Source of the DNA: Ilumatobacter sp.
GTDB taxonomy: Bacteria; Actinomycetota; Acidimicrobiia; Acidimicrobiales; Ilumatobacteraceae
NCBI GenBank assembly: GCA_029263275.1
Contig: JAJCXU010000105.1
Span: forward strand, 1-13,790
Length of the DNA: 13,790 nucleotides
Direction of reading: 5' to 3'
In this document: positions 10,067 to 12,358 of the stretch, piece after piece
Layout of the letters: every line of letters begins with the position of its first letter
Position numbering within the stretch: position 1 is the first letter of the stretch
Notes under the pieces: generated by a model
Databases searched by the model: none
What the model was told of the DNA's origin: nothing
Seen by the model: only the letters and a program-made list of their open reading frames with translations
Made by a program: the position numbers and the translations under genes

Positions 10067-10642
10067 TCAGGCCGCCATGGGCCGCGGGTGGAGCTCGTCG
10101 ATCTCGGTCAGGATGTCGGCCAGTGGCCGCATCGGGACGCTGAGAAGCTTGGCACATGTACGACATGTTGTCGGTGGAGGGTGTCCACCATCGTCGACGA
10201 CGTAGAAGCTCGTGTGGCGGTACGAGCTGGGTCGGTCGCTGGCGGCTCGGGCGAACGCGCCGCAGACCGTGACGCGGCGTCCGGCGGGGTCGGCGAGCGG
10301 CGCGACGAAGTCCCGTGTGGAGCGGACGGCATGCGTTCGGTCAGCGGTGCGAGCGCGTTGCGGCGGCGTCGGCGTGACGAGCGTGGGTCGGCGGGCGCAC
10401 CGCCAGCGGTAGGCGCGCTGACGGCAGGCATTGGTGCAGTAGACCTTCGCCCGGCCGGGGCGATGTGGCCGTGCCACGCTGGCTTGGCACACAGGGCAAC
10501 GCCAGACGTTGCAGGACCGAGCCGGACGGGGGAGTTGTTCGGCGGTCTCGCGAAGCGGCTGGAATCCGTTTCTCCAGATCAGGTTGATCCGTGGCCAGGT
10601 GGGCGTGGGCCGTGTGGATGAAGCTCGAGTTCCGACGGTCAT
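10067..10642 (-). CDS. Small protein with two Cys clusters (zinc-ribbon type, CRQRAYR motif)
   Basis: The protein has 191 residues and no membrane segment. The first half holds C49-x2-C52 and C69-x3-C73 around VYCTNACRQRAYR (67-79). This closely resembles the RYCSNACRQRAYR treble-clef/zinc-ribbon element that recurs in small actinobacterial proteins, so it probably binds zinc. The second half carries C127, then C160-x2-C163 after SFYVVDDGGH, a possible second metal site with H143 or H154. An Arg/Pro/Thr-rich linker joins them. The basic content and zinc elements suggest nucleic-acid or protein contacts, but I cannot name a function. Start: the ATG at 10642 has TACGTT 6 nt upstream; the GTG at 10669 would add nine residues and has no such support. 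Confidence 0.65.
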   Translation of the reverse strand: MTVGTRASSTRPTPTWPRINLIWRNGFQPLRETAEQLPRPARSCNVWRCPVCQASVARPHRPGRAKVYCTNACRQRAYRWRCARRPTLVTPTPPQRARTADRTHAVRSTRDFVAPLADPAGRRVTVCGAFARAASDRPSSYRHTSFYVVDDGGHPPPTTCRTCAKLLSVPMRPLADILTEIDELHPRPMAA

Positions 10643-10654
10643 GGCTCGAACGTA
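10643..10654 (-). promoter_or_regulatory. Putative leaderless -10 for the zinc-ribbon gene
   Basis: The minus strand reads TACGTT (10654-10649), then 6 nt, then ATG at 10642. No Shine-Dalgarno sequence is visible. Confidence 0.5.
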
Positions 10655-10710
10655 CGCCCGCACGCTCACAGAGTTGATCGAGACATCTGCCTGGCCCTGA
10701 CGACAACAGC

Positions 10711-10857
10711 GTGGCCGTTCTGATTCGTCTCACGGCCGGGTGGGCGGTGGAGAGTGGCCGTCCTGAATCGTCTCGGGCAGGCGGGCGGGCAGCGGGGCGG
10801 TTGAGACGATTCAGGACGGGGTGAATGGCTTCTGGTGGGGCCCGTGAGACGATACGG
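10711..10857. repeat. Four copies of a 17-bp element in nested inverted arrangement
   Basis: The consensus GAGACGATTCAGGACGG occurs in reverse at 10715-10731 (copy A) and 10758-10774 (B), and forward at 10803-10819 (C) and 10845-10860 (D). B and C are perfect 17-bp reverse complements. A and B are direct repeats over 21 bp with two differences (10711-10731 and 10754-10774). C and D match at 13 of 16. A and D share an 11-bp complementary end (TCGTCTCACGG / CCGTGAGACGA). The order A-B-C-D can therefore fold as an inner 17-bp stem inside a weaker outer one. The elements lie in the 318-nt gene-free stretch between the zinc-ribbon gene and the livK terminator; no gene was found there. Confidence 0.8.
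10775..10797 (+). other. G-quadruplex motif in the loop of the central inverted repeat
   Basis: The plus strand has G-runs at 10775-10777, 10783-10785, 10787-10789 and 10794-10797, separated by loops of 5, 1 and 4 nt. This meets the usual G3+N1-7 rule. The motif fills most of the 28-nt loop between copies B and C. A GC-rich genome produces such motifs by chance, so folding is inferred only. Confidence 0.5.
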
Positions 10858-10861
10858 GATG

Positions 10862-10901
10862 CTGAAAACAACAAGAGCCCGGGACCGAGGTCCCGGGCTC
10901 T
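10862..10901 (-). terminator. Rho-independent terminator of livK
   Basis: Positions 10874-10901 form a hairpin of AGAGCCCGGGA(C) against its complement with a very short loop. Read on the minus strand the stem is followed by CTTGTTGTTTTCAG, a T-rich tail. It lies about 60 nt after the livK stop and is oriented correctly for livK. Confidence 0.85.
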
Positions 10902-10924
10902 CGCCATGTTCAAGTATTCAGTTG

Positions 10925-10960: not shown

Positions 10961-12358
10961 TCAGACTTCGACCGAACCCTGGACCGAACCGTCAACGACG
11001 ATGGTGCCGGTCTCGTCGAATTCCAGGATGAGGATGGAAGCCTGTGTGGGCTCACCCTCGTCGCGGAACTCGAGCGGGCCAGAAACGCCGTCGTAGTCGA
11101 TGTCAGTGCCGGCCTGGACGAGTGCGAGGCAATCGGCGAAGGTGGTGCACTTTTCGCCGCCACGGGTGACGTCGTTGATCTCAGCGCCGATGGCGACGCC
11201 ATCGTCGGAGCCAGCTGCTTCTGCAGCAAGCGCCATGATGACAACGGTGTCGTACGACTCAGCGGCGTACGAGAAGTCCACCAGGTCGGGATCGACGGCG
11301 AGCAGCTGGTCGCGGAATTCTGCGAGCTGGCCGTCAACGTCGACGCCCGGGAGCGTGCCACGCATGCCAGCGAGGACCGTGGGGTCGTCGAAGGCTGCAG
11401 CGAGGGCGTTACCCATGTTGCCGTCAGTGCCGTAGATGAGCTTCTGAGCCGGGCCGACTTCGTTCTCGATGAGACCCGTGAGGATCTTCGAGGTCTCGTC
11501 GAAACCAATGACGACGATGGCATCCGAGCCAGCGGCGACAGCCTTGGCGACCACGTCATCGAAGTTCTCAGCCTTCGGGTCGTAGATCTCAGCGAGGTCA
11601 ACCACGCCACCCTGTGCCTCGAACGGGCCCGAGGTGAACTCGAGCAAGCCGGTGCCGTAGGCATCGTTGAGCACGAGGAAGGTGGCCGAGGCAGCGCCGT
11701 CAGCGATCATGATGTCAGCGAGCGCTGCACCCTGCACGACGTCGGACGGTGCGGTACGGAAGTACAGGCCGTTGTCGTCGTAGTCGGTGAAGGTCGGCGA
11801 GGTGTTTGCCGGGCTGAAGTGAATCTTGCCAGCCTGCGTGATCTTGTCGATCACGGTCAGCGACACACCGGAGCTTGCAGCACCGATGAAGCCGTCGACG
11901 TCTTCCGCCAGGAGGCGGTCGACCGTGGCATTGGCCACTTCACCGTTGTCGCCCGAGTCGCCCGGGAGCCACTCGATGTCGTTGCCGAGCACACCACCAG
12001 CGGCGTTCACGTCCGCGATAGCTGCTTCGACACCGGCGAATTCCGGCGGTCCGAGGAAGGCAAGGTTGCCCGTCTCAGGAAGGATGCCACCCAGGCGGAG
12101 AACGCCATCGGAGCCACCCTCATCAGGTGCGTCGGTCTCGACGGGTGCGTCGGTCTCTGCCGGTGCTTCCGTCTCGACTGGTGCCTCGGTCTCGACCGGA
12201 GCATCCGTCTCAACGGGTGCGTCGGTTTCGGCTGGGGCTTCTGTCTCTGCGGGTGCGTCAGTCGCGGCGGGCTCATCGTCGTCGCTACCGCAAGCAGCGG
12301 CAACGAGTGTGAGTCCAACGAGCAACGAACCGACGCGGGTCACGCGTGATTTCTGCAT
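10961..12358 (-). CDS. livK: LIV-type substrate-binding lipoprotein LivK
   Basis: The extracytoplasmic binding protein of a branched-chain amino acid (or related) ABC importer, 465 residues, Leu/Ile/Val-binding periplasmic fold type I. Residues 1-22 are a signal peptide ending in TLVAAAC, so C23 should be lipid-modified and anchor the protein outside the membrane. Residues 33-80 are eight hexapeptide repeats T[DE]AP[AVD]E, an acidic tether. The binding fold starts at VLRLGGILPETGNLAFLGPPEFAG (86-109), with ADVNAAGG (115-122) and FIGAASSGVSL (157-167) as typical LivK positions. C404 and C410 may form a disulfide. The ligand is not certain, because the family also binds amides, aromatics and urea. 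It is encoded opposite to livHMGF and converges on it, with its own promoter, strong Shine-Dalgarno site and terminator, as fits a protein needed in excess. Confidence 0.9.
   Translation of the reverse strand: MQKSRVTRVGSLLVGLTLVAAACGSDDDEPAATDAPAETEAPAETDAPVETDAPVETEAPVETEAPAETDAPVETDAPDEGGSDGVLRLGGILPETGNLAFLGPPEFAGVEAAIADVNAAGGVLGNDIEWLPGDSGDNGEVANATVDRLLAEDVDGFIGAASSGVSLTVIDKITQAGKIHFSPANTSPTFTDYDDNGLYFRTAPSDVVQGAALADIMIADGAASATFLVLNDAYGTGLLEFTSGPFEAQGGVVDLAEIYDPKAENFDDVVAKAVAAGSDAIVVIGFDETSKILTGLIENEVGPAQKLIYGTDGNMGNALAAAFDDPTVLAGMRGTLPGVDVDGQLAEFRDQLLAVDPDLVDFSYAAESYDTVVIMALAAEAAGSDDGVAIGAEINDVTRGGEKCTTFADCLALVQAGTDIDYDGVSGPLEFRDEGEPTQASILILEFDETGTIVVDGSVQGSVEV
12119..12262 (-). repeat. 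18-bp tandem repeat encoding the LivK tether
   Basis: Eight in-frame 18-bp units encode T[DE]AP[AVD]E at residues 33-80 of LivK. Codon choice varies between units (third-position changes), so the array is degenerate at DNA level but uniform at protein level. All units preserve frame. Confidence 0.85.

Follow-up and report, generated by a model that had tools for sequence, protein, structure and literature searches.

Small DNA-binding proteins that are encoded beside an iterated array, bind that array, and control their own promoter are known from parC/ParR centromeres and iteron/Rep units. Another arrangement is that of the REP/BIME repeats and their RAYT genes, for which the relevant passages of PMC2817692 give REPs at usually more than 100 copies per genome, flanking the gene on both sides. 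Here we describe an array of a 17-bp element in a stretch of 13,790 nucleotides from Ilumatobacter sp. (contig JAJCXU010000105.1; hereafter the window), together with the zinc-ribbon gene beside it. The array is best read, at a probability of roughly 0.6, as a cluster of recognition sites for the adjacent zinc-ribbon protein, which would bind them and probably regulate its own gene. Searches of the open-licence PMC literature yielded no description of this gene or array.

The array and its flanks

The elements of the locus are as follows; genomes and loci are cited below by our own G and L numbers, and contigs by C numbers.

10067..10642, minus strand: zinc-ribbon gene, 191 aa, start codon picked by comparison with relatives
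10649..10670, minus strand: promoter-like stretch, TGTGAG at 10670-10665 and TACGTT at 10654-10649 (-12 to -7 from the ATG), found by eye from relatives
10715..10731, minus strand: array site A, GAGACGAATCAGAACGG, two mismatches, the copy nearest to the zinc-ribbon gene
10758..10774, minus strand: array site B, GAGACGATTCAGGACGG, exact
10775..10802, no strand: 28-nt central spacer between B and C, whose plus strand contains a four-run G motif
10803..10819, plus strand: array site C, GAGACGATTCAGGACGG, exact
10846..10862, plus strand: array site D, degenerate and the weakest, GAGACGATACGGGATGC, three mismatches when the consensus is given R at position 11
10863..10912, minus strand: hairpin with a T-rich tail, 24-nt arms that are 79% complementary, found by eye
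10961..12358, minus strand: branched-chain amino acid binding-protein gene, PF13458

The initial annotation of this stretch had reported four copies of GAGACGATTCAGGACGG, two reversed and then two forward. The order is as described (A and B on the minus strand, C and D on the plus strand), and the inner pair is indeed an exact 17-bp inverted repeat around the 28-nt gap at 10775-10802; only two of the copies are exact, A and D being degenerate. The four-run G motif attributed to the loop is also present, on the plus strand, i.e., the strand opposite to the gene. The GATTC cores follow one another at intervals of 43, 43, and 43 bp, and the core of site A lies 84 bp upstream of the ATG of the zinc-ribbon gene. 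The 43-bp spacing thus holds for all three intervals, but its reading as four helical turns is weak, many other periods being found in relatives (18, 34-36, 42-46, and 51-62 bp, among others). Periods of 34, 44-45, and 55 bp do differ by about 10.5, but 18, 42-43, 46, and 58 bp also occur, and we therefore do not claim helical phasing.

When the window was scanned with the 17-mer of the initial annotation at up to three mismatches, A, B, and C were matched and D was missed. When the window was dinucleotide-shuffled 200 times, no shuffle gave three or more matches (mean 0.17, largest 2), and these shuffles, together with reversed-pattern controls, rule out a chance origin. Folded as single-stranded DNA, the array region surpasses its 200 shuffles in stability (z -5.06), which an inverted repeat of this kind would be expected to do. 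The same genome, whose assembly is 70% complete, holds five matches at up to two mismatches, three of them in the window array, and 25 at up to three mismatches as against 8 for the reversed control. Other short inverted repeats occur in this genome at L005 (G000:C464) and L016 (G000:C303), and beyond the stretch that matches, these are unlike the array motif.

It had also been stated that nothing coding explains the array. No gene accounts for it, to be sure, but the statement overlooked the conserved neighbouring gene. The candidate promoter-like stretch at 10649-10670 would, if used, yield a leaderless transcript of the zinc-ribbon gene; the regular expression written for the promoter element of the homologues has no match there. 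On the other side of the array, the hairpin at 10863-10912 is a probable end of the binding-protein gene, judging from its arms and tail, and the terminator scan made no call at it. A sequence resembling this hairpin is present in G000:C473 and in G006. The window also has, at 12101-12280, a low-complexity 18-bp tandem repeat close to where the N terminus of the binding protein is encoded. A divergent promoter was rejected for the window, where the gene beyond the array lies in the orientation of the zinc-ribbon gene, with its end at the array; such a reading suits the PHP locus of G006, described below. Orthologues of the binding-protein and ABC genes lie about 0.6 kb apart in G008, without zinc-ribbon gene or array, and have a different gene between them in G007. 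These are not precise empty sites, because the YhhN gene of the window is missing there as well. In G006, the zinc-ribbon gene and its array lie about 8 kb from the binding-protein orthologue.

Arrays and zinc-ribbon genes in relatives

The initial annotation had proposed a search for the 17-mer in the genome and in relatives, and the element is found elsewhere: other Ilumatobacter species and two further genera of the family also carry arrays of this motif. Among ten genomes of the genus, clusters at up to two mismatches are present in G000, G001, G003, G006, and G009 and absent from the remaining five, with one match of the reversed control over all ten. Sites per genome are few (2-20), the five genomes with clusters having 5, 7, 20, 10, and 12 when single sites are included. 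G006 has one array of 16 sites and one of 9, in both of which the left-hand sites are reversed and the right-hand ones forward. Across 150 family genomes, at up to one mismatch, 16 had a match, which added clusters in G048 and G109, and a cluster surrounds the single match listed for G129. Isolated copies mostly fall inside called coding frames (12 of 15 sites at 13 inspected loci) and were therefore left out of the array count; one of the three non-coding exceptions, L070, is part of an outward pair that precedes a zinc-ribbon gene. In the 17 centres whose limits could be set, the innermost sites of opposite orientation are 28 to 174 nt apart; three of these centres have a G4 motif (the window, L070, and L191), and arrays of a single orientation occur at L057 and L061. 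With centre length and G4 motif varying in this way among relatives, a G-quadruplex with hairpin was rejected as the conserved feature.

What does recur is the gene. A profile of seven zinc-ribbon proteins (A1) matched 41 of the 150 family genomes, many of them by the first module only. We examined 32 two-domain loci; further matches that were not fetched exist (e.g., G110:C417), and L186, which starts off its contig, was not counted. At 29 of the 32 loci, an outward pair or array lies directly upstream of the two-domain homologue, two of these (L280 and L282) being degenerate pairs recognised by eye; the 29 are not independent events, because several loci are close relatives (e.g., L163, L195, and L282). 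The other three lie near contig ends (L189 at 309 nt, L192 at 620 nt, and L281 at 232 nt) and show one orientation or nothing. A motif-blind score, which counts 14-mers at up to two mismatches within 700 nt, reached at least four copies upstream of 20 of 25 two-domain genes, or 18 when L192 and L196, where the repeat is a simple one, are set aside, and downstream of 1 of 24. Among one-domain controls (L204-L225, from the class search, with L226 dropped as cut by a contig end), at least four copies were reached upstream of 1 of 22 and downstream of 2 of the 21 with enough sequence for scoring. With four shuffles of each locus, the maximum was 3 for the two-domain set and 4 for the one-domain set. 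The array thus adjoins the gene of its candidate binder and does so in relatives, as expected of an operator array, and together the two look like a single regulatory unit, since the relatives of the gene carry their own versions of the array. Separately, a gene with the second module only, L278 (G017:C19), has an upstream array of six sites by the untuned score.

Within the genus, the zinc-ribbon gene is present in three of ten genomes, and G048 contains three gene-array units. No zinc-ribbon gene was detected in G003 or G009, both of which contain arrays; these assemblies are 82% and 81% complete, and such incompleteness, like that of the window's own genome, limits any claim of absence.

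The motif itself is specific to lineages. The left half of the site is mostly GAGACGATTC, with GTGACGATTC in G109 and G149 and GTGGAGATTC in much of the distant group, and the right arm is specific to the locus, G149 being mixed. For instance, two paralogues of one genome, G109, differ in their right arms, GGGA in 5 of 5 sites at C22 vs. ACGA in 9 of 9 at C13, and the three units of G048 have GGGA (6/6), ACGA (3/5), and GAGA (3/4). The arm is ACCA in 5 of 5 sites in G043 and GAGA in 5 of 5 at both loci of G050. Motif distance is correlated with protein distance (Mantel r 0.65, p 0.0001, n=27, with seeds typed from earlier outputs), also within groups (r 0.64, p 0.0001, n=15; r 0.64, p 0.0014, n=12). 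A first automatic run, in which motifs were mis-picked at three loci, had given r 0.39 overall (p 0.0001) and r 0.10 in group 1 (p 0.25). We would like to note that shared descent alone can produce such a correlation.

Arrays also occur away from zinc-ribbon genes. These orphan arrays lie at a PHP-domain gene (G001 and G006), a polyprenyl synthetase gene (G001 and G003), a glyoxalase-like gene (G001), a photolyase-like gene (G009), and one place in G129. The PHP-gene array is present in two of seven genomes (G006 and G001) and absent from G003, G005, G007, G008, and G009. The arms of orphan and gene-linked arrays agree to differing degrees: G006 has GGAA, GGGA, and GTGA in both; G129 matches partially, with GCGA in 8 of 10 orphan and 3 of 7 gene-linked sites; and G001 is mismatched, with AAGA in both sites of its gene-linked pair vs. 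GGGA or AGGA in 12 of 13 orphan sites. Orphan arrays may be further targets or remnants.

The zinc-ribbon protein, its homologues, and their start sites

The protein of the window has two ligand sets of zinc type, the first being C49-x2-C52 with C69-x3-C73 and the second H104, C127, and C160-x2-C163. Neither Pfam nor NCBIfam has a family for it, and a profile scan of the seven A1 members at E up to 0.1 yielded five weak families, with 0.012 as the best value and PF01797 not among them; no Y1 (IS200-like) transposase and no other transposase or recombinase family was reached. Comparisons with known structures gave 19 Foldseek matches at an E cut-off of 10 and 0 at 0.001, one entry listed by VIA-align among the 57 chains compared, and seven matches to the sequences of solved structures that are uninformative (best E 0.051). 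A possible likeness of the first module to the YacG zinc finger (PDB 4tma), named a gyrase inhibitor in the title of that entry, is too weak for a claim of relationship. A defence origin was rejected, PADLOC matching 0 of 19 zinc-ribbon members, and so was a phage origin, the same members having weak PHROG matches only: phrog_16925 (unknown) in 12 of 19 (best 1.9e-4), phrog_1271 (an HNH endonuclease family) in 8 of 19 (best 4.7e-5), and phrog_8660 (HNH) in one. The window protein had 0 matches in plasmid and phage records, and in both G006 and G043 the gene lies on a single contig of 4.8 Mb.

Homologues of either type, i.e., with one or two domains, were found in 119 of 395 genomes of the class. 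The one-domain proteins of the Acidimicrobiia have the same first module, YC-x3-(C/H)RQ.., as the two-domain proteins; unlike these, they have no second module, and arrays were not seen at their genes by the score given above. Instead, a GTCAC(N)GTGAC palindrome lies near the start at 18 of the 22 loci L204-L225, all outside the family of the window, and in 17 of those 18 it stands just behind a TAnnn(T/A) box resembling a -10 element. Five more one-domain loci outside the family have it in 3 of 5 cases (21 of 27 in total), and one-domain gene starts inside the family have it in 0 of 8. When the same loci, of one-domain and two-domain type and with their gene starts, were tiled into 360-nt windows, 21 of 693 windows had the palindrome, and eight genomes have between 1 and 10 copies each of the longer form TCGTCAC(N)GTGAC. 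The palindrome is perhaps the site of a putative single-target autorepressor. Arrays of distant two-domain genes repeat TCACGTGGAGATTC or TCACGTGACGATTC, an extended sequence related to the palindrome, and one start-site operator may thus have multiplied and shifted upstream into an array; this proposal is weakened by the lack of the palindrome at the family's own one-domain genes.

A second element was noticed at the starts of the homologues. A GTSACACC-like sequence precedes 28 of 32 starts, at -27 to -29 in 25 of them, with variants picked post hoc and no control; the window gene is without the full element. For the mycobacterial PafBC/P1 (RecA-independent) DNA-damage promoter, the consensus given in the relevant part of PMC5656591 is tTGTCRgtg - 8 nt - TannnT, which the GTSACACC-like element resembles in place and spacing and from which it differs in its letters. 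The pattern TGTGACACC-N14-19-ATG has 19 matches (L283-L301) in eight Ilumatobacteraceae genomes, 1-5 per genome, vs. 2 for the reversed control. One of these matches is the start of the G043 zinc-ribbon gene, and nine of the proteins behind the matches were scanned against Pfam, which gave RmuC (2), DUF222 (2), and Y1_Tnp (2). Only some of the matches are gene starts, because 7 of the 19 lead to frames of at most 66 aa. From its sequence pattern, the set is a possible small regulon.

Possible functions of the array

In the reading that we favour, the zinc-ribbon protein would bind zinc and probably recognise G(A/T)GACGATTC-N4, with the first cysteine module and the helix after it most likely making the DNA contact. 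The more distant copies are reversed and the nearer ones forward, an arrangement in which several molecules may assemble, perhaps cooperatively, upstream of the gene. Such an assembly, upstream of the protein's own and probably leaderless promoter, would set the expression of the gene, and a few other genes with orphan arrays may, in certain species, be targets of the protein as well. Speaking for this reading are the outward sites directly upstream at 29 of 32 two-domain loci, the different arms of the G109 paralogues, the correlation of motif and protein distances, the related sequence at one-domain starts outside the family and in distant two-domain arrays, the small number of sites in the window's own genome, and the GCGA arms common to both arrays of G129. 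Against it stand the end of the sites at least 72 nt upstream of the start, a long distance for simple steric repression, the arrays of G003 and G009, the mismatched arms of G001, the missing palindrome at one-domain genes inside the family, and the lack of the full promoter-like element before the window gene.

Of the options offered by the initial annotation, a set of operators for one factor fits, with the product of the adjacent gene as the likely factor. An extragenic palindrome or structured RNA is unsupported because of the centres of 28-174 nt, the G4 motif in only 3 of 17, and the arrays of one orientation. The same evidence makes it very improbable that a cruciform, a long hairpin RNA, or a G-quadruplex is the selected feature, as the perfect 17-bp inner inverted repeat, the fold z of -5.06, and the four G runs in the loop might otherwise suggest; in addition, Rfam at gathering scores had 0 matches in the window, a result that bears on described RNA families. 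It is rather unlikely, too, that the sites belong to an unlinked factor, e.g., a global regulator or nucleoid protein, of which the zinc-ribbon gene would be the most constant target. Arrays without a detected gene in the incomplete assemblies G003 and G009, and the mismatch of orphan and gene-linked arms in G001, would agree with such a factor, as would the fact that DNA binding by the zinc-ribbon protein is itself deduced. Nevertheless, paralogous genes within one genome (G109 and G048) have different arrays, which makes one common factor hard to accept, and the related palindrome stands near 18 of 22 one-domain starts, with its longer form being rare.

A selfish or mobile unit, in which the protein copies or moves the repeats as with RAYT genes and REPs, would explain gene-less arrays, several units per genome, and patchy occurrence. 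We consider this unlikely, even with the gene in three of ten genus genomes, the three units of G048, the orphan arrays with their differing flanking genes, and the weak PHROG matches to HNH endonuclease families. The protein reaches no transposase or recombinase family, the sites are few per genome and lie upstream only rather than on both sides, and two orphan arrays keep their gene neighbour in two species (the polyprenyl synthetase gene in G001 and G003 and the PHP gene in G001 and G006).

Beyond a recognition-site cluster for the adjacent protein, we tentatively raise, as a doubtful extension, an undescribed chromosomal class of regulator plus array, i.e., a two-module zinc-ribbon family of the Ilumatobacteraceae with private, expanding, outward-facing arrays that are specific to each paralogue and perhaps arose from the start-site palindrome of the one-domain genes. 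The array might then serve for nucleation (bridging, centromere-like, or damage-linked) rather than as a plain operator. If the recognition-site reading were right, it would provide a new family of DNA-binding zinc ribbons with many natural variants of the recognition sequence, from which a protein-DNA code could be read directly, and one could trace how a lone site grows into an iterated array. The single-contig genomes G006 and G043 would suit experiments on the purpose of arrays of private sites.

Among known systems, the parC/ParR and iteron/Rep units are alike in that a small predicted DNA-binding protein is encoded beside an iterated array. They differ in that the zinc-ribbon gene lies on a 4.8-Mb single contig in G006 and in G043 and is without a plasmid or phage match; neither a partition ATPase nor a replication protein was found among the ten window proteins scanned, the first 4.2 kb lying outside that scan. 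Compared with REP/BIME repeats and RAYT genes, as presented in the pertinent parts of PMC2817692, the sites here are few and upstream only, and no Y1 transposase domain was found in the protein. The two arrangements nevertheless have in common short opposite repeats that are tied to one gene, and in both the repeats and the gene diverge together.
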